DNA of 22,952 nt from a virus. This document shows positions 4,660 through 22,952 of this stretch, one piece after another. The position numbers and the translations under genes are program-made. Numbering within the stretch: the first letter of the stretch is position 1; the number at the start of each line of letters is the position of its first letter. The stretch lies in the IMG/VR virus record IMGVR_UViG_3300046513_000333, positions 1 to 22,952 of that record; one strand, written 5' to 3'. The notes under the pieces are model-generated. The model was not told where the DNA came from, made no database searches, and worked only from the letters and a program-made list of their open reading frames with translations.

Positions 4660-5161
4660 ACGCCCGCCGTTCTTGGCCAGGCTGGCGCATGCCGGCGATC
4701 TCCCCGATCGGCACGGTGTCGTAGACGTTGAAGGTGACGCCCATCTTGCCGTCCAGTTCCTTGGCCAGGTCGCCGACGAAGCAGATCACCGCGTTCACGT
4801 CAGCAGACATGCGGAACGCGGATATGACCTTGTCGCGCAGCGGCGTCTTGCCCATGGCGATGCCGTGAAAGACCAGCGTATGCAGGAATTCGCCATCGCT
4901 GCCGTACAGATACGGTAGGCGCATCAGCGCTTCGCACGCGCCCTGCCCGGCCAGCGTCAGGTGCGGCATGATACCGCCGATGCCATCCGGGTCGGGCAGT
5001 AGCTCCCCGCCCGACCAGCAGCAGTAGCGGATGGTGTTGTCAACCTCGACCTCCAACACCGACATGGACACCTCCACATCAGGCGCCCAGCCTTTTGCGC
5101 TGCGCAGCTGCTGCTCGGTCTCGGGGGTGGGCGAGGCGCCAATGATCATCTTCGATCTCAT
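4643..5161 (-). CDS. Unknown protein co-expressed with RepL
   Basis: 172 residues, starting in an ATGA overlap with the repL stop, so it is translated from the repL transcript. The sequence is alpha/beta-like: an N-terminal MIIGASPTPETEQQLRSAKG, then VSMSVLEVEVDNTIRYCCW, a region DPDGIGGIMPHLTLAGQGACEALMRL, and a C-terminal VNAVICFVGDLAKELDGKMG. No motif known to me is present. The position suggests a role in replication, copy control or partition of the element, but that rests on context alone. It runs tail-to-tail into the rightward array. Confidence 0.65.
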   Translation of the reverse strand: MRSKMIIGASPTPETEQQLRSAKGWAPDVEVSMSVLEVEVDNTIRYCCWSGGELLPDPDGIGGIMPHLTLAGQGACEALMRLPYLYGSDGEFLHTLVFHGIAMGKTPLRDKVISAFRMSADVNAVICFVGDLAKELDGKMGVTFNVYDTVPIGEIAGMRQPGQERRAFSFPA

Positions 5162-5763
5162 GCTGCTTCGTCTGTATCGGTGTGATTGACAGCCGGAACA
5201 GGACCTGGCGCCTGCGCCCGGTCCTGTTCGCGCAGACGGTATTCCTGCACGAACGCCAGGCGGTCGCCGTTCCAGATGAAATCAAGATTCACAAAAAACC
5301 AGCCCTGCGTCATCATGGGCGCGATGAAATTCTTGTCCTTCAACTCGCGCACGCCGCGCGAAAAGGTCGCCGGACTCAAATCGGGGAAGATCGCCTTGTC
5401 CAGATGCGTGTGGCTAAGGAAGATTTGATCCTCACCCATCTGCTTCTGCATTTCCATGTAAAGGACGGCGAACAACTTGGTGCCAGCGCTGGTCAAGTCA
5501 GCCAGGCCCTTGACACCGTTGACGTACAGCTTGATGAATTGCGTCTTATCGACTTGCTTGGATTGCCAGAAGCCGGCCCCGCCCAGCACCTCGCCGCTCT
5601 CTGCGCTCACGACGAGCATGCGTTCGTTGTCCTGGCTGGTGATGCGCTTGACGCCGCGATTGGTATTGGCCACAGCCCCCTTCAGAAAGGGATTAGTCTC
5701 GTACACGATATCACCGCGTCGTGTCTTGAGAACGGCGGGTGCGAAAGGTGGGATAGGTTTCAT
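5158..5763 (-). CDS. repL: RepL-type plasmid/phage replication initiator
   Basis: 201 residues. The order of blocks fits the RepL family (PF05732; plasmid RepL proteins and the phage P1 lytic initiator): VVSAESGEVL at 51-60, FIKLYVNGVKGLADL at 76-90, an AGTKLFAVLYMEM helix, then a winged helix (IFLSHTHLDKAIFPDLSPATFSRGVRELKDKNFI, 114-147) and the wing FFVNLDFIWNGDRLAFVQEY. RepL proteins start replication at a nearby or internal origin. I chose ATG 5763 because the longer forms (ATG 5793, TTG 5820) lie inside the promoter core on the same strand. No strong ribosome binding site is present. The gene heads a leftward operon with the 172-residue unknown gene. It is the main reason to suspect a phage-plasmid. 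Confidence 0.8.
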   Translation of the reverse strand: MKPIPPFAPAVLKTRRGDIVYETNPFLKGAVANTNRGVKRITSQDNERMLVVSAESGEVLGGAGFWQSKQVDKTQFIKLYVNGVKGLADLTSAGTKLFAVLYMEMQKQMGEDQIFLSHTHLDKAIFPDLSPATFSRGVRELKDKNFIAPMMTQGWFFVNLDFIWNGDRLAFVQEYRLREQDRAQAPGPVPAVNHTDTDEAA

Positions 5764-5820: not shown

Positions 5821-6060
5821 TCATAATGATAGGTTTTTTGATGTAACATTTCTCACGCAATGAAAGATAATCCCTCAAAGAGTTCGATCAATTTGGATGA
5901 ATTTTTGATGCATCCTCTTTCATCGTTTGAAAGAACTTCGATCAAAAACCAATCATAAATTGAAACAACGATCAAAATCACACAGTAAACTGAAAGAGTA
6001 ATTGCAGGATCTGAAAGTTTAGTTTCAGTTCCTGCAAATTGAAATCGTGCAACTCATTGA
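5821..6060. repeat. AT-rich iteron-like repeats, candidate replication origin
   Basis: Short direct repeats recur with the same polarity. TGAAA occurs at 5861, 5928, 5961, 5991, 6012 and 6041 (t at 6040), with spacings of about 33, 30, 21 and 28 nt, near multiples of a helical turn. CGATCAA occurs at 5885, 5939 and 5969. Two units combine both words (5927-5947 and 5960-5977). A small palindrome TCTTTCA-tcgtt-TGAAAGA lies at 5916-5934. Next to a RepL gene, this is what an initiator-binding region would look like; RepL origins can also lie inside the gene, so this is tentative. Confidence 0.45.
6002..6037. repeat. Palindrome with 15-bp arms
   Basis: Left arm 6002-6016 and right arm 6023-6037 are inverted copies with one mismatch, separated by GTTTAG. 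The core reads CTGAAA-gtttag-TTTCAG, flanked by GCAGGA and TCCTGC. No T-tract follows on either strand, so it looks more like an operator or initiator-binding dyad than a terminator. It lies just upstream of the possible rightward promoter at 6039-6067, where an activator or repressor could act. Confidence 0.7.
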
Positions 6061-6452: not shown

Positions 6453-6479
6453 TCCCCTATGGGCGTTAGCCCATCACTT
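6453..6479. repeat. 27-bp direct repeat, copy 1, containing a hairpin
   Basis: Identical over 27 nt to the copy at 6496-6522 (period 43 nt). Inside is a 6-bp stem ATGGGC with loop GTTA (6459-6474), followed by CACTT. Confidence 0.85.
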
Positions 6480-6495: not shown

Positions 6496-6522
6496 TCCCC
6501 TATGGGCGTTAGCCCATCACTT
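6496..6522. repeat. 27-bp direct repeat, copy 2, containing a hairpin
   Basis: Second exact copy. The same ATGGGC-gtta-GCCCAT stem-loop lies at 6502-6517, here followed by T-tracts. Confidence 0.85.
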
Positions 6523-6732: not shown

Positions 6733-6812
6733 CCTCAGTGTATTTCCTTCAAGTTTGTGTGTATGGTTTGCTTTATGTCAACGCAGAACTTTTCACGAAC
6801 AAGTGGGACACC

Positions 6813-8198
6813 ATGAGTAAAATCCATTGGACCGAGCAGGAATTCAACGCACTGGCGCAGGCCTTGCGGCAGCAATTCCCCGATCGGGCCGCGGCCCAGG
6901 CCGCGACACCGCAGCAGTTCGTGTTCACCACCCACGAAGTGGTCGTGGTCATGCACGCCAACTTCCCGAGGGAGCGGCAGCGGGCGCTGACGCAGGGCAT
7001 GGTCAAGAAGCTGACGGCCAAGCTGATCGAGGCCGGCGGTGGCGTCCCGCCGCAGCCCCGTCAGCGCCTCAAGCCACCCTTTGCGGTCGTGCGCTGGACC
7101 CCGGAAGAATGGCGGCTGTATGCGCTGTCGCTGCTGACGCTATACCCGCAACTGGACCTACTGAACTCGCCCGACCTGGCCCGGCTCAGGCTCAACCACC
7201 TGAACAAGGCCTGCGCCATCATGGATAAGGACAGGCAGCGCACCTTCCACGCCCTTGGCGCCCCGATCGCGCGCCTGCAGGTGATCTACGCCGAGGCCAA
7301 ACGCTCAGGCGATCCGCTGTTCATGGGCGGGCGCCTGCCAGAGGTAGTGGCCAGCCCCGCCGCCCCGGCCAGGCTGCACCCGGTTGACAGAAAATCCGCC
7401 ACGACCCCGGCCAACTGCAAGATATTCTGGACCAAGACCGAATGGGTCAACGTCGCCGCCGAGCTGCACCGCCAATACCCGCATGCCAAGTACCCCGAGC
7501 GTAATAACCTGGGCGCGCTGAACCCGGCCGACGTGTACGGTGCGCAGATCGTGCTGCCCGACGAACGGCGCCGCAAAAACCTGAAGCAGGTCTCCATGTC
7601 GATACTGCGCGGGCCGCTGATCGAGGCGTTCAAGACGGTGCGCGCCATACAGGCCGAGGAAAGCCAGCAGAAGATGGCGGTGGCGCAGCAGGCGCATAAC
7701 GAGCTGCTGGAGCGCGCCGCCACCATCGCCGCCCAGCCGAATCCATGGGAGACCGCCGTCAGGCCCTTGGTCGATCTGCTGGTGCGCGAGATCAGTGCAC
7801 AGCTGCTGCCGGCGCTGCTCGAAGGCCTGGCAAAAACGGCCCCGCCGCGGCCGACACCGCCAGCGCACTTGTCTCTTGCGTCCACGGCACCGGTACGCAA
7901 GGTCATGCGCGTTGGCATCGTCGGCAACCGCAGCACCTACGCCGACGACCTTGAGCGGCGCTTCCCGTCCATTGAATTCGAGTGCATCGAGAGCAGCAAG
8001 AAGATCGACAGCGTGCGCAACTGCGACAAAGTGATCGTGCTGATCAAGTTCGTGTCGCATGAGCTGGCCAAGCATGCCCGCCGCGCGGCCGGCGAGCGTT
8101 ACGTGCCGATCAACGGTAGCGTGACCGACATGTACCGGGTGATTGGCGGCTGGTTGACCGATTCCGCGAAAGACACCAGTGTGGCTGCAGTTGGCTAA
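6813..8198 (+). CDS. DUF2325 protein with three W-T-x-x-E helical repeats
   Basis: 461 residues; start ATG 6813 (MSKIHWTEQEF), because the upstream in-frame extension to 6675 crosses AT-rich non-coding-like DNA. Three related modules are visible: HWTEQEFNALAQALRQQFP (W6), RWTPEEWRLYALSLLTLYP (W95) and FWTKTEWVNVAAELHRQYP (W206). Each is followed 46-49 residues later by a conserved ER/DR-x-R (R55, R141, R252). The W-T-x-x-E-W pattern resembles Myb/SANT-type helices, suggesting DNA or protein binding. A linker with a proline-rich end leads to a C-terminal domain (about 362-461) with VMRVGIVGNRS, a D-KVIVLIKFVSHELAKHA stretch and RYVPINGSVTDMYR, which matches the pattern of DUF2325. The function of DUF2325 is not established. 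Its stop overlaps the luxR-type gene (TAATG), so both are one operon. Confidence 0.75.
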   Translation: MSKIHWTEQEFNALAQALRQQFPDRAAAQAATPQQFVFTTHEVVVVMHANFPRERQRALTQGMVKKLTAKLIEAGGGVPPQPRQRLKPPFAVVRWTPEEWRLYALSLLTLYPQLDLLNSPDLARLRLNHLNKACAIMDKDRQRTFHALGAPIARLQVIYAEAKRSGDPLFMGGRLPEVVASPAAPARLHPVDRKSATTPANCKIFWTKTEWVNVAAELHRQYPHAKYPERNNLGALNPADVYGAQIVLPDERRRKNLKQVSMSILRGPLIEAFKTVRAIQAEESQQKMAVAQQAHNELLERAATIAAQPNPWETAVRPLVDLLVREISAQLLPALLEGLAKTAPPRPTPPAHLSLASTAPVRKVMRVGIVGNRSTYADDLERRFPSIEFECIESSKKIDSVRNCDKVIVLIKFVSHELAKHARRAAGERYVPINGSVTDMYRVIGGWLTDSAKDTSVAAVG

Positions 8199-8926
8199 TG
8201 CTCTGGTACGAACGTTGTGCCAGCACGTTGCTGGTGCCTGACCAGACGCTCGATGGTGCCCTGCGCGGCGCCGTCGCGCTGGCCAGCATGCTGGGCTTTG
8301 AACATTGCGGTTATACCCTGGAGACCATATTGCCGGTGAGTGCCCCCCGTTCCCTGTTTTTGACCAATCTGGACGGCGAATTGCAGACCAGAGTCGAGGA
8401 GCACCGCACACAGTCGGTCTTGCCCACGGCACGGCACGTGCGCCGTTCCGCCAAACTGATGCTGTGGCCGATCGAGGAAGCGTCGCCCGACCTGTTCTGG
8501 ATGGACATGCGCCGGCTCGGCGTGCGCGCCGGCTGGACCCTGGCCGCCACCGAGCGCACCCATGCCATCGGCCGCTTCACCGCGTTGCGCACCAGCGGCC
8601 CGTTCGGCGTGCGCGAATACGAGACCGAGCTGCCGCGCTGGACCATTTTGACCGAATTGATGGACGCGGCGGTGCGTCAGCTGGTCTACCCTACCCTGCT
8701 GGTGAACGACACGATCGCGCTGACGCGCGAAGAAACGGAAGTGCTGGCATGGACGGCCGATGGGGCCACCTCCAAGCAGACCGCGCGCCGGATGGATATT
8801 TCGCCGCGGCGGGTGGACTACCTGCGCGGCGTGGCGGTCGAAAAGCTCGGCTGCAACAACATCACCGACAGCGTGGTCAAGGCGCTGACCTTCGGGCTGC
8901 TGACGCGGCCGGTGGCGCCGCTATGA
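8198..8926 (+). CDS. LuxR-type quorum-sensing-like transcription factor
   Basis: 242 residues, the normal length of LuxR/TraR-type receptors. The C-terminal GerE helix-turn-helix is clear (about 172-235: LTREETEVLAWTADGATSKQ, then ISPRRVDYLRGVAVEKLG). The N-terminal part fits the autoinducer-binding fold (MLGFEHCGYTL near 31-41, TN at 56-57, GVRAGWTLA later). With TraR as reference, the acyl-homoserine-lactone contacts fall with exact spacing on L62 (W57), V66 (Y61), L75 (D70), P76 (P71) and W90 (W85). Three of five ligand residues are therefore replaced. It is a LuxR solo (no luxI nearby) that probably senses another ligand or none. LuxR-type receptors are known from some phages and would link host density to phage decisions. 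Operon-coupled to the DUF2325 gene. Confidence 0.85.
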   Translation: MLWYERCASTLLVPDQTLDGALRGAVALASMLGFEHCGYTLETILPVSAPRSLFLTNLDGELQTRVEEHRTQSVLPTARHVRRSAKLMLWPIEEASPDLFWMDMRRLGVRAGWTLAATERTHAIGRFTALRTSGPFGVREYETELPRWTILTELMDAAVRQLVYPTLLVNDTIALTREETEVLAWTADGATSKQTARRMDISPRRVDYLRGVAVEKLGCNNITDSVVKALTFGLLTRPVAPL

Positions 8927-9390
8927 GATTGGACGGCTGGGCTGGCTTTTATACGATCGGCGCCGACCGCGTGCCGGTCCCCTGCTTCGACGTGAGCGAG
9001 TGGGGAAGGTGGCACGCCAACAACCTGGCCGCCTGCCGGGTCGGCGACGACCGCACCGAACATTACCGGGTCAGCACTGTGTTCCTCGCGCTCGATCACA
9101 ACCACTGGCGACAAGATGACCCGATCCTGTTCGAGACCATGGTGTTCTTCACCGACGGCGAGTATGGCAACATGGAGCGCTATCGCACCTGGGCCGAGGC
9201 GGCGGCCGGCCACGAGCGCATCCGCTCGATGCTTGAACGCGAGTACGCCGATGCCCACCAGCTGACGCTGGATACGCTGCGCGCCCAGCTGGCGGCGCCG
9301 CGGACCAGCCGCAACGCCCGCGAGGGCCGCTACAACTTCAAACAGGGCGGCCGGCATCGGCGCACCCACGCACGACCAGGAACAGCATGA
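8923..9390 (+). CDS. Conserved phage protein, 155 aa
   Basis: ATGA-coupled to luxR. The region VSTVFLALDHNHWRQDDPILFETMVFF followed by a GNMERYRTWAEAAAGHE segment is, from memory, shared by many phage proteins of unknown function. The C-terminus is strongly basic (NAREGRYNFKQGGRHRRTHARPG) and could bind nucleic acid. No catalytic motif recognised. Confidence 0.65.
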   Translation: MRLDGWAGFYTIGADRVPVPCFDVSEWGRWHANNLAACRVGDDRTEHYRVSTVFLALDHNHWRQDDPILFETMVFFTDGEYGNMERYRTWAEAAAGHERIRSMLEREYADAHQLTLDTLRAQLAAPRTSRNAREGRYNFKQGGRHRRTHARPGTA

Positions 9391-16681: not shown

Positions 16682-17068
16682 CTAGACGAGGCGCGCGCGG
16701 AACCACGCCGCCAGATCGGGTTCTGTCATGGTGCCGGCGGCGACAGCCAGCACCGTGCGGATCGCTTCGGCCGGCTCGAACGTCAGCTGGCAACCGTTCA
16801 GGCGCAGGAACAGACGCGCGGCCAGCCAGGCCGTGCGCTTATTGCCGTCGCTAAAACCATGGCTGCTGGCCAGGCCGTGGCAATACGCCGCCGCCAGTTC
16901 GGCCGCATCCGGTGACGGCTGGCCGTACATGTCGCGCATTTCCGGCCGCACCAGCGCCGCCTTGACCGCGTTCAGGTCACGCACCCCGTCCAGCCCGCCG
17001 TGTTCGGCCAGCTGGGCGTCGTGCATGGCCAGCACCACGTCCTCGCGCACCCATACCCAGGCCGTCAT
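16682..17068 (-). CDS. doc: Doc-type toxin (Fic fold)
   Basis: 128 residues, Doc size. The Fic motif HGFSDGNKRTAW (H70-N76-K77-R78) is intact, with the typical upstream region (GVRDLNAVKAALVRPEM) and a C-terminal LAVAAGTMTEPDLAAWFR. Doc of phage P1 phosphorylates EF-Tu and stops translation; this protein probably does the same, since all motif residues are kept. It is preceded in an ATGA overlap by the AbrB-type antitoxin and ends 9 nt from the convergent acb2-like gene. Confidence 0.88.
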   Translation of the reverse strand: MTAWVWVREDVVLAMHDAQLAEHGGLDGVRDLNAVKAALVRPEMRDMYGQPSPDAAELAAAYCHGLASSHGFSDGNKRTAWLAARLFLRLNGCQLTFEPAEAIRTVLAVAAGTMTEPDLAAWFRARLV

Positions 17069-17292
17069 TTGGCCAGCACGCGCAGGATGTCGCGGTCCTC
17101 GCGCATGATCTGTTCGGCCAGCTCCATCTGCCGGCCAAATTCCGGGTTGTATGGGGTGATCCGCAGCGCGCCGTCTGGCGCCTCGGTCAGGTAAATGATG
17201 TCGCCCTTGGCGACATTCAGCTTGGCCTTGGCTTCTTTGTTCAGGATGAACCCTTCCGAGCCGCCCACCGTTGTCAGTTTAAATTGCATCAT
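17065..17292 (-). CDS. AbrB/MazE-type antitoxin of Doc
   Basis: 75 residues. Start ATG 17292 has AGGAGG 7 nt upstream; the adjacent ATG 17289 is also possible. The N-terminal half is a swapped-hairpin AbrB domain (QFKLTTVGGSEGFILNKEAK, KLNVAKGDIIYLTEAPDG), and the C-terminal helix (FGRQMELAEQIMREDRDILR) would neutralise Doc. It differs from the Phd antitoxin of P1; AbrB-type partners of Doc are known. It should repress its own promoter through the palindrome at 17304-17325. Confidence 0.85.
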   Translation of the reverse strand: MMQFKLTTVGGSEGFILNKEAKAKLNVAKGDIIYLTEAPDGALRITPYNPEFGRQMELAEQIMREDRDILRVLAK

Positions 17293-18663: not shown

Positions 18664-21600
18664 TTACGGGGTTTCGTCGGCGAAGGCGCCGGCGGCGCGC
18701 GCATCGCGGCGCGACTTCGGCAGGAAGATGCCCTCCTTGGCCTGCGCCACATGCTGCATGCGCAGGCGCACGCTATGCTGCAGGTGCAGCGGCGCGATCA
18801 TGCGGCTCGGGTGCAGCGCATTGAATGCTTGGATCGCCTGCAAGGTGCTGGCCGGGTCTTCCTGCTGCATGACGTGGTGCGCATACTGGTTCATCAGCTG
18901 CTGGCGGCGCTGCTGCAGGGCCTTGTCGGTCTGGTAGATCGCGCTTTTTCCCGCCTGCGCCTCACGGCCGCGGCTCGGCGAGAAGCCGAGGAACTGGCCG
19001 GCATCCTCGGCCAGCGTGGTCTCCGGCACCAGCTCGATGCCGGTGCGGTCCTTGATCCCCTCCTGGGCGTAGCGCAGGGTTTTCAAAGGCCCGCGCAGGA
19101 ACGCCGGCACCATTTCCTCCAGCCCGCGCTGCCAGTCGTTGTTGTGGGCAATGGTGTACATGCCCTTGGACGCATTCACGGCCATGCCGGCCACCGGCCC
19201 CAGCAGCCCGGTCAGATACGACTCGGCCAGCGGTGCGCCGGCCAGCCCTTCCTGCACGTCCGGCAGCAGCAGCGAATTGAGTCCGACGCGCGCTGAGATA
19301 TCCCACGGCGTCAGGCGCGACAGGCCGTGCGCCAGCACTTCGCCGGCCTTGTCGCCGAAGGCGTCGGCGAACAGGTTGCGCAGCGCGATCTCGGCGTCCC
19401 ACGGCTCGTCGTCCGAGCCGCCGACCATCGAGGCGGCGGCCAGCAGCATACCCACCACCGGCAGGCCCAGTACGCCAGCGGCCAACGCATGGGTCGTCAA
19501 CAGGCCGGCGATGGTCTTGGCGGCCTGGCGATCGCCCTTGACCGCGCGCACCGCGTTGCGGGAGAAGGTGTAGATCATGTTCTGCGCGTATTGCTTAAAC
19601 AACAACACCACGCGCGCCACGTCGCCCTGCATCACGCGCGCGCGATTACCTGAGCTGTAATCGAAGTGGCTGGCGTAGGTGTCCTGCACCGAGGCGGCGT
19701 AGGCGGCGTCGTGGTCCATGCCCTGCTCGCGCGCCAGTCGGTAGCTGGCCAGCGCGGTGGCCTGGCGGTTGAAGCGCTCGGCGTGGTGGAACATAAACGA
19801 GAACACTTTCATGGTCGTGCCCATGGCGCCGTGCAGCGCGCTGTCGTTGCCGGCGGCGATGCTGGTCAAATCATGCGCCAGCGTCACATCAACCAGCCCC
19901 GACTTGATCCATTCCTCGTAGGCGCGCAGCTCGTCGCCTTTCAGCACCTTGCCCATGTCGTTGTGGCCGCGCACCGCGTCCTGCGAGGCGGCGGTCAGCG
20001 CCGAGGCGGCCTTGCCGAAGCCGTAGCGCCCGCCCAGGATCGGGTAGGCCACCAGCGCCGTCTGCGTCAGGTTGACCGCAGCCGATGCCGGCGACAGGCC
20101 CAGGTAGAACACGTAGCCGGCCGAGGTCAGCCAGTTCGACAGCTTATTGTTCTTCGGATTCATGTAGATGTCATGCCGCTTGAGCATTTCATCGATAACC
20201 TGCTGCGCCTTGACCTGGTCATAGCCGGACTCGCGCCCGACCGTATTGGCGTAGTGCTGCATGTCGTCCAGCGTCTGCGCCAGCTGGTCGGCGTAGTTCA
20301 GCTTGGCCAGGTAGCGCGCGCCGTGGAACATATGATTGGCGAACGCGCGGCGCGCATCCTGCGAGAAGCCGGGCGTGCCCTTGCGGTGGATGCCGTGCTT
20401 GGCCCACGACAGGTCCGGCAAGGACGTCAGGTACAGCTGGTTGATCGCATCCTGCAGGGACGGGTCCATGCCGGTGGTCTTGAACATGTTGAACATTTGC
20501 TGCAGGAAGCCGCGCCCAACCGAATCGCGCGCCGCGTTGTACTCGGCGCGAAGGGTCACCTGCGCCACCTGATAGCCCTGCTCTGGCGGGTACTGTTTCA
20601 TCAGCTCGGCGCGCAGGGCCTGCGCCTCGCCCATGGTTTCGGCGAAGTGAATCGCCTCGCGCGCCTGCCCCATGGCCGGGTTCGGATTGGCGCCGCGCCA
20701 GTTCACCTGCACCATGTAGTCGCCAAAGCGCGCCAGCGGGAAGTAGATGCCCTTGATCTTGCCGAAGAACTCGGCATCCATGCGCGCCAGCATCGCGGCG
20801 CGGTTCGGATTGCCGGCCATGGCGCGGCCGATGCGGTCGTGCACGGCCGCCTTCACCGCGGCGTAGTGCTTCTCGTAGGCGTTGGAGGCCTCGGTGAAGA
20901 TCGCCTTGGCTTCCTTCGACAATGCCACGTAGCGCGCGCGCAGCTCGGTGTAGTTGGTCCTGATGTCGCCCATGTCATATGGCTTGCGCGGATCGATCTG
21001 CAAGCGGGTGGCGTCGTGCATCAGTTCGGCCAGCGCCTGGTGGTCTTTGAGCTTGCCCCAATTGGTGGCGATGGTATCGGCCTGCGCGCTGGTGTCGTTC
21101 TTCTCGGCGTCCATCTGCATGGCCAGCTTGTTGTACAGCGCCATCAGGTTGTCCTTGATCCCTTGCGGGAACAGGTGGCCGTACACCTCGACCAACTGCT
21201 GGCGGCCGAGGAACTGCAAGGCCAGGCGCCGGTAATCGACAAACTTGTTCTTGATGCTGGTGACGGTCAGCGCCTTGAGGGTCGATCCGACCTGGCGCGA
21301 CATGTCGGCCGGGCTGCGCGAGAACAGCGGGCCGGCTAAATTCCCGACGTCTTGAGTGTAGCGAGAAACTGCGGCATCGAAGTCGCTGCGGCTAACAGGG
21401 TCAGCGTCTGCGCCAGCTTGTCCGGCCACTCGCCCGTCATCTTCTCCTGCCTGGCCAGCGTTGCGAAGGTCGTCAGCACGTCCCGCATTTCTGGCAGAGT
21501 AGGCGCCAGCGTCCGAGAGTTCGACGCCACGATTTCGTACATCGGCGTGCCGGATGGTGTCGTTGAGGGCTTGGTAGATATCATGATTCTTGTCCAGGAT

Positions 21601-22952
21601 CGAACGCAGCTCCTGCCGCGTGCTGCTCAGGTTGAACGTATCACTTGATTCTAGCAGGGTTTGCACACGCTGCATTTCGCCGATGAAGCGCTGGCTGTGG
21701 TTCATTTCCTTGAAGTGGGCGATTTCATGGATCATGGTGGCGACCATGGACGTGGCGATGCGCTTGGTGTTGCTGGCCGGCGCCGCGCTGTACTCGTCAT
21801 CGACCGCGCTGATGGCCGGGTTCATGAACATGCCCCGGAACGGCGTCATTGTGTGCACGCCGTAATACTCCTTGTCGAAGCTGGTGCCGATGGCCACTTC
21901 GGCCATGCGGCCGTAGTGGTCCGGGTCCTCGGCCACCATGGCATCGCGCAAGGACATGAACAGACGCCCATAGTCGCGCAGGTAGCGGTCGAAGCGGGCG
22001 CCGAAGCGTTCGCGCATGAGCTGAGTGATCGGCGTCACGGTCTCCGTGTCCTGCATGCTTTTGTGCAACGCTTCCAGCGCGTCGGCGGCGGCATAATAGG
22101 CCTCGTCAGCATTTGACGAGGCCTCTGAAGCCTGGTTGACGTTTTCAGTGAGAAGGTCGCGCCGCGGGTCGCCATAGGGGACATCGCTGCGCTGACGGTA
22201 CAGATCGGTGTACACCTTGCGCAGGTCTTCGCGCCGTGCATCGGCCTGCGCCACCGCTTCCTCCATCTGTCCGACCTGGACCCGCTGCGCGGGGGTGCCA
22301 AACAGGACCACGTCCAGGTTATCGTGGATCATCGGGCGGGCCGGGTCGATCTCGCTCTGGTCGATCTTGAACTTCGACACGTCGATCTTGATTTGCGCCA
22401 GGTCGTTGGCCGTCAGTTCGGGCACGGCGCGGCCGTTGACCGTCATGCGGCCGGCGTGAATCTCGATCCGGTCGCCCTCATTGATTTGCAACATGTTCTG
22501 GCGGGCGCTGTCATCGATCTTCGGCGCCAGCTGCATCTTGTCCGACACGCTGCCGTCGGCGTTGATGTATTCGATCTGACCGAAGCCAGCCGCGTTCTCG
22601 GCCGCCTTGTTGCTGCCGTAGATCACCGACAGGTACTTGGTGATCTTGCCGAAGTCATCCGACACGGCTGGCGAAAAGCCCTGCCGGTTGAGGGCGAACG
22701 GGTAGCCCGCGTCTTCCGGTTTCAGGCGCGGCTCGACGTTGATGTACATTTTGCGCGGGATATTATCGGCGTTGTAGTCGAGCGGGTTTTCCTTGATCGA
22801 GAAGCCAAACTGCCACAGCCCGTTCGACAGCACATTGACGTTCGAGCCGTAGTTTTTTTCTTCCTGCTTGGAGATGATGATGCGCGCCGTGCCCCAATCG
22901 AATTTGACGGTGGAGAACGTGGTGTAGTCGTCCTTCGGGAAGTTGCGGCCAA
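18664..22952 (-). CDS. C-terminal 1,428 residues of a giant PLxRFG-type phage protein
   Basis: The frame is open from the right window edge to the stop at 18664, so the start lies outside. Visible parts from the N side: beta-rich region (about 1-180); helical segment; a zinc-peptidase-type motif HEIAHFKE (408-415) with HSQRF shortly after; a Gly/Asp/Arg-rich linker near 490-520 with repeats of NAG and QAG; a long helical region; then PLARFG (738-743) and about 690 residues after it. The PLxRFG motif marks a roughly 700-residue C-terminal domain of very long phage proteins (NCBI 'PLxRFG' family). A hydrophobic segment (LAAGVLGLPVVGMLLAAASM) lies near 1,150. Such giants are multidomain proteins thought to travel in the virion and enter the host with the DNA; exact function unknown. 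Confidence 0.8.
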   Translation of the reverse strand, partial: GRNFPKDDYTTFSTVKFDWGTARIIISKQEEKNYGSNVNVLSNGLWQFGFSIKENPLDYNADNIPRKMYINVEPRLKPEDAGYPFALNRQGFSPAVSDDFGKITKYLSVIYGSNKAAENAAGFGQIEYINADGSVSDKMQLAPKIDDSARQNMLQINEGDRIEIHAGRMTVNGRAVPELTANDLAQIKIDVSKFKIDQSEIDPARPMIHDNLDVVLFGTPAQRVQVGQMEEAVAQADARREDLRKVYTDLYRQRSDVPYGDPRRDLLTENVNQASEASSNADEAYYAAADALEALHKSMQDTETVTPITQLMRERFGARFDRYLRDYGRLFMSLRDAMVAEDPDHYGRMAEVAIGTSFDKEYYGVHTMTPFRGMFMNPAISAVDDEYSAAPASNTKRIATSMVATMIHEIAHFKEMNHSQRFIGEMQRVQTLLESSDTFNLSSTRQELRSILDKNHDIYQALNDTIRHADVRNRGVELSDAGAYSARNAGRADDLRNAGQAGEDDGRVAGQAGADADPVSRSDFDAAVSRYTQDVGNLAGPLFSRSPADMSRQVGSTLKALTVTSIKNKFVDYRRLALQFLGRQQLVEVYGHLFPQGIKDNLMALYNKLAMQMDAEKNDTSAQADTIATNWGKLKDHQALAELMHDATRLQIDPRKPYDMGDIRTNYTELRARYVALSKEAKAIFTEASNAYEKHYAAVKAAVHDRIGRAMAGNPNRAAMLARMDAEFFGKIKGIYFPLARFGDYMVQVNWRGANPNPAMGQAREAIHFAETMGEAQALRAELMKQYPPEQGYQVAQVTLRAEYNAARDSVGRGFLQQMFNMFKTTGMDPSLQDAINQLYLTSLPDLSWAKHGIHRKGTPGFSQDARRAFANHMFHGARYLAKLNYADQLAQTLDDMQHYANTVGRESGYDQVKAQQVIDEMLKRHDIYMNPKNNKLSNWLTSAGYVFYLGLSPASAAVNLTQTALVAYPILGGRYGFGKAASALTAASQDAVRGHNDMGKVLKGDELRAYEEWIKSGLVDVTLAHDLTSIAAGNDSALHGAMGTTMKVFSFMFHHAERFNRQATALASYRLAREQGMDHDAAYAASVQDTYASHFDYSSGNRARVMQGDVARVVLLFKQYAQNMIYTFSRNAVRAVKGDRQAAKTIAGLLTTHALAAGVLGLPVVGMLLAAASMVGGSDDEPWDAEIALRNLFADAFGDKAGEVLAHGLSRLTPWDISARVGLNSLLLPDVQEGLAGAPLAESYLTGLLGPVAGMAVNASKGMYTIAHNNDWQRGLEEMVPAFLRGPLKTLRYAQEGIKDRTGIELVPETTLAEDAGQFLGFSPSRGREAQAGKSAIYQTDKALQQRRQQLMNQYAHHVMQQEDPASTLQAIQAFNALHPSRMIAPLHLQHSVRLRMQHVAQAKEGIFLPKSRRDARAAGAFADETP

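Follow-up and report, generated by a model that had tools for sequence, protein, structure and literature searches.

The 22,952-base IMG/VR record analyzed here over its whole length (the window) carries a luxR-type gene (8198..8926, + strand) whose 242-residue product belongs, by its domains and fold, to the LuxR family. Because the residues that grip acyl-homoserine lactones (AHLs) in other family members are swapped for greasy ones, gene control by this protein is probably independent of the usual signal. The best reading of the comparisons below is an AHL-blind phage regulator, a LuxR-solo variant carried on a phage-plasmid, that probably controls genes without listening to AHLs. An earlier note on this DNA had described a phage-borne LuxR solo with a degenerate pocket and an intact DNA-binding domain.

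The gene was delimited by translation of its open reading frame, by Pfam matches, and by three orthologues; its frame is open in three further records at 82 to 86% identity. Both domains of the family score above the Pfam cut-offs. Residues 22 to 132 (8261..8593, + strand) match the autoinducer-binding domain (Autoind_bind, PF03472; 37.8 bits against a cut-off of 23, E 1.6e-9), an assignment shared by a fold match to the ligand-binding domains (LBDs) of QscR, CepR2, and LasR, and residues 175 to 229 (8720..8884, + strand) match the GerE/LuxR DNA-binding domain (PF00196; 42.1 bits against a cut-off of 23.5, E 6.4e-11). The earlier note had assigned the protein to the LuxR family while allowing that a profile search might find something other than an autoinducer domain at the N terminus; the search agrees with the assignment. 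An AlphaFold2 model built from six sequences, including three distant viral LuxRs, reached a mean pLDDT of 70.9 and a pTM of 0.56, and a first model, whose alignment comprised four near-identical sequences, was set aside for its poor quality (pLDDT 43). Searches with Foldseek and VIA-align placed full-length QscR as the top fold match (TM 0.82 to 0.83, Z 22.5 to 22.8, over ∼231 residues), followed by CepR2, RhlR, SdiA, and LasR. The structure prediction that had been proposed as a check thus superposes on QscR, with LasR among the further matches, and speaks to the fold and not to the cavity: according to the model the LuxR fold is retained in the phage protein, and the model is silent on whether the cavity is open.

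QscR is also the best PDB sequence match (3szt; E 1.6e-19, 25% identity), and the alignment runs gap-free from residue 28 to residue 97, pairing L62, V66, L75, P76, and W90 with W62, Y66, D75, P76, and W90. This is exactly the gapless pairing that had been claimed, as is the replacement of three contact residues (W62, Y66, and D75) by the aliphatic residues L, V, and L. Two positions extend the earlier picture: the sixth motif residue is kept (G112, equivalent to TraR G113), and a fourth anchor, Tyr58 (TraR Y53), has become Leu. The codons of the lost anchors lie within 8369..8422 (+ strand; alignment to 3szt), with L58 (TraR Y53) at 8369-8371, L62 (W57) at 8381-8383, V66 (Y61) at 8393-8395, and L75 (D70) at 8420-8422. 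In TraR and LasR structures, the AHL is held at its lactone carbonyl, amide, and acyl oxygen by the equivalents of W57, D70, and Y53. The six-residue motif thereby reads LVLPWG in the phage protein versus the canonical WYDPWG. All four phage members have LVLPWG and lack the motif of AHL sensors, and none of 39 other LuxRs has it; this comparison set comprised the 30 best LuxRs from 399 genomes of the Aromatoleum order, six LuxRs of plasmid and phage records, and three of other viral contigs. Eight positions are invariant in 39/39 of these proteins (Y58, W62, Y66, D75, W90, W101, G112, and R131), and the phage clade keeps W90, W101, G112, and R131 while changing exactly Y58, W62, Y66, and D75. 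Six further pocket residues of the clade (G38, T40, E42, F54, V81, and R126) were never seen among the 39.

Among LBD positions with at least 85% conservation across relatives, the pocket has 3 kept and 7 changed residues and the rest of the domain 13 kept and 6 changed (P = 0.064), a count that is indicative because the positions that we take to form the pocket follow published LuxR structures and not a measurement on coordinates. Within the clade, 22/25 pocket positions are invariant versus 114/150 across the domain (P = 0.095), a weak test of conservation of the changed pocket because the clade holds only three distinct sequences. Summed pocket residue volume (3,558 versus 3,588 cubic angstroms) is near that of relatives, so the pocket is not visibly filled and would leave room for another ligand.

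The DNA-binding half has changed as well. Its helix-turn-helix (HTH) is recognizable, and the E-L-G signature of GerE-type domains (TraR E178/L182/G188) is retained as E179, L183, and G189, with W185, K216, and N221 also among the kept residues. Yet 9/22 positions with conservation of 85% or more among relatives differ, and the earlier statement that the HTH is intact was too strong. The changed residues include K190, I198, T205, F208, H209, N212, and K222, and the non-canonical recognition helix (ISPRRVDYLRGVAVEKL) contains T205R, H209L, and N212V. With 13/22 conserved positions kept, the operator has probably changed too, and we expect the phage LuxR to use a different one from its relatives.

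The gene resides in a phage lineage. Orthologues with the same motif were found in three other IMG/VR contigs (L002, 101 kb; L003, 98 kb; L004, 18 kb) at 82 to 86% identity; luxR sits at the same place in the 98- to 101-kb relatives, and the window is collinear with its relatives over most of its length. One 101-kb relative (G001) encodes a terminase large subunit, major head protein, portal, head closure, baseplate wedge, primase, helicase, ParA, and ParB, which upholds the claim that the receptor is phage borne. Virion and partition genes, the combination that defines a phage-plasmid, thus occur on one element, of which the window represents a 23-kb part, and this uncultured phage group can probably live as a plasmid. 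We rejected host contamination as the source of luxR because the gene keeps its synteny in contigs that encode phage structural proteins. The terminase has relatives in 37 IMG/VR contigs and one bacterial genome, that of Aromatoleum anaerobium (65% identity), where the homologue adjoins further homologous phage genes; from this homologue, the host is probably a betaproteobacterium. Among 50,697 phage records there was one remote, partial terminase match, and a search of the plasmid collection found no relatives there.

A search for homologues on other phages, also proposed earlier, yielded the three orthologues that share the motif and three unrelated viral contigs with canonical receptors. 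Two sets of records were rejected as phage LuxRs. “Acinetobacter phage MD-2021a” (CAKLQH020000009.1, our L008, and CAKLQF020000013.1) appears to be host chromosome; its records hold a lasI-type AHL synthase, an sdiA-like receptor, and nonribosomal peptide synthetase (NRPS) genes in a biosynthetic cluster. “Pseudomonas phage Y5” (OQ572407.1, our L009), labeled UNVERIFIED, has an RhlR-like gene with a canonical pocket and is probably host DNA.

The luxR gene is the middle member of an apparent operon and overlaps both neighbors, its start with the upstream stop (TAATG) and its stop with the downstream start (ATGA). The upstream gene (6759..8198, + strand; an in-frame ATG also occurs at 6813) encodes a 479-residue protein with three WTxxEW/F repeats, recognized by eye, and a weak C-terminal DUF2325 match; a family search found no HTH match in it. 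Orthologues occur in two large luxR-bearing relatives and divergent homologues in two luxR-free ones (G007 and G010), and a scan of the relatives found no further members. In G010, this repeat gene is matched as many as three times, with overlap or in tandem, at positions 423 to 2720 of contig C1 (G010:C1:423-2720). The downstream gene (8923..9390, + strand) encodes a conserved phage protein of 155 residues.

Three relatives with 81 to 93% identical terminases have no PF03472 match: G007 (101 kb), G010 (80 kb), and G016 (78 kb, incomplete). G010 preserves an empty site, where the 155-residue gene directly follows the 479-residue homologue and the stop of one overlaps the start of the other (CGCATGAAA, ATGA) with no luxR between; luxR in the window occupies exactly this junction. 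In G007, the flanking genes are kept apart by other small genes. Given the luxR-free ATGA junction, luxR looks like a recent cassette, and the simplest reading is a single-gene gain inside the operon, with loss in G010 as the alternative.

Between the operon and a divergently oriented neighbor (5158..5706, − strand; 182 residues, strongly conserved with omega 0.12 to 0.13), which looks replication protein-like by eye and has no match in a family search, lies a conserved 36-bp dyad with 15-nucleotide arms (TTGCAGGAtCTGAAA-N6-TTTCAGTTCCTGCAA; 6002..6037, intergenic, 0.7 kb upstream of the operon). It is perfect in both relatives and is the strongest conserved noncoding palindrome that we found; it could be an operator, another regulatory element, or part of an origin. 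A search for repeated-palindrome operators found only this single dyad. A 16-bp palindrome, ATGGGC-GTTA-GCCCAT, occurs twice (6459-6474 and 6502-6517); in relative G1 its loop is GCCA with unchanged stems, and it is absent from G2. One copy looks terminator-like, and we do not claim these repeats as an operator. In a check for an antirepressor gene, the 1-kb intergenic region showed small conserved frames that are not separable from conserved noncoding DNA, and an XRE gene is located 8 kb from luxR, at 142-372. Elsewhere in the window, a Fic/Doc toxin gene (PF02661) with a doc_partner-type antidote gene forms an addiction module (16682-17292, − strand) in a stretch missing from the aligned 101-kb and 98-kb relatives. 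Part of a giant gene (18664-22833, − strand; about 4,900 to 6,400 residues in relatives) has DarB-like antirestriction and LPD39 matches, and the window ends inside it.

The luxR gene is under weak purifying selection: omega between members is 0.44 to 0.55, below 1 (Fisher P = 0.0003 to 0.016) and among the highest in the window. It is therefore unlikely to be a dead gene. In a tree, the branch of the phage clade is very long, at 4.2 changes per site, and the closest bacterial source of the gene cannot be named from it. No close bacterial homologues were found among the bacterial genome contigs scanned with the clade alignment, and the LuxRs in the 399 genomes of the Aromatoleum order are only ∼30% identical, with canonical W, Y, and D. 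Consistent with the statement that luxI is absent, a PF00765 profile search gave no match on the window or its three relatives and found the annotated synthases in 3/3 control records. On these four phage records, the protein is a putative LuxR solo.

We tentatively favor, at somewhat less than an even chance, a LuxR transcription factor that arrived as a one-gene cassette in a phage-plasmid accessory operon and was re-specialized toward AHL independence and an altered operator. A phage-plasmid lineage, probably of Betaproteobacteria, would have acquired luxR and then re-specialized the receptor, which may now fold and dimerize without AHL. Its activity would be set by operon expression or by a protein partner and not by AHL concentration; a partner requirement has a precedent in the XRE protein needed by the receptors of phages Apop and ARM81ld (PMC10432266), and the 479-residue protein is the operon neighbor here. 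The changed HTH might recognize operators that differ from the lux box, probably within the phage-plasmid itself, and so adjust phage or plasmid genes.

Several other accounts fit parts of the evidence. Somewhat unlikely, although the leading rival, is that the protein senses a small, mostly apolar molecule other than an AHL, made by the host or its neighbors; folding and DNA binding would then depend on a ligand in the re-lined pocket, as they do in PluR and PauR. The near-normal pocket volume, the slightly higher conservation of the pocket within the clade, and non-AHL solos with changed motifs (PMC4414361, PMC10134790) are consistent with it; Y66 and D75, essential in PluR and PauR, are nevertheless both lost, and there is neither a candidate ligand nor a recognizable synthase gene nearby. 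The fuller proposal, in which pocket and operator were both re-specified and such a non-AHL cue lets the phage read a host signal, we regard as unlikely; if true, the protein would sense a signal outside known quorum-sensing chemistry. It is doubtful that AHL is still bound in a shifted mode through W90, F100, W101, and T128: these positions and G112 are canonical (T/S at 128), but the equivalents of W57, D70, and Y53, invariant in 39/39 relatives, are aliphatic here.

The dimer-forming fold retained in the model would also suit a decoy or anti-activator that forms mixed dimers with a host LuxR and so weakens quorum sensing in the host. QscR, whose solved structure is the closest, also interacts with other receptors, and the phage protein Aqs1 is an anti-activator that acts on LasR by another route (PMC13043044). 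The full-length DNA-binding domain with its conserved E-L-G speaks against such a role, which we consider quite improbable. Very improbable is that luxR is cargo in decay and serves no function at present. Its omega, among the window's highest, and the related phages that manage without luxR would agree with decay, but the frame is open in four records, start and stop overlap both neighbors, omega is significantly below 1, and structural residues are kept while the anchors change.

LuxR-type receptors are reported from few phages (PMC6456758, PMC10432266, PMC13345283), in agreement with the earlier note, and no phage LuxR with LVLPWG-type substitutions was described in the literature searched, which does not prove that there is none. 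The few characterized phage LuxR proteins listen to host AHL, and the present clade keeps the fold while all four AHL-gripping residues are gone in concert. If the protein is active, it offers a defined test of whether receptors captured by phages are made into switches independent of AHL or tuned to other signals, with the luxR-free site in a relative as a natural comparison.

The closest likeness among known systems is to QscR of Pseudomonas aeruginosa (3szt, 6cbq), an AHL-binding solo with the full-length fold, two-domain architecture, and pocket numbering in common; QscR has WYDPWG plus Y58 and binds 3-oxo-C12-HSL, whereas in the phage protein these residues are LVLPWG and L58 and the recognition helix is altered. 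The Aeromonas phages ARM81ld and Apop likewise carry a LuxR-type receptor on a plasmid-maintained phage; their receptors are solubilized by C4-HSL and encoded in an xre-luxR operon that has a small antirepressor gene opposite it (PMC6456758, PMC10432266). They have xre directly upstream, whereas the present luxR is preceded by the 479-residue gene, whose product has no detected XRE domain, and the match of the ARM81ld LuxR to our protein is confined to the HTH. The LuxRs of three IMG/VR contigs (L098, L099, and L100) resemble the present gene in lying on viral-classed contigs where no luxI was found and differ in having canonical WYDPWG and in belonging to contigs unrelated to the present phage. 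L098 (3300012001_000006; L137:8155-9276) is a phage-like contig whose luxR adjoins an integrase-like gene, and its HTH and that of the window protein have the stretch V.......RKLG..NIT in common. Two known groups of LuxR solos also have changes in this motif and no longer respond to AHLs. Those of the plant-associated OryR/XccR group carry W57M and Y61W (PMC10134790), where the phage protein has L and V. In the Photorhabdus solos PluR (TYDQCS) and PauR (TYDQYI), W, P, W, and G are lost and Y and D are kept, and alanine at the Y66 or D75 equivalents abolishes the response (PMC4414361); the phage protein has V66 and L75. Its motif is thus complementary to theirs, with W, Y, and D lost and P, W, and G kept.
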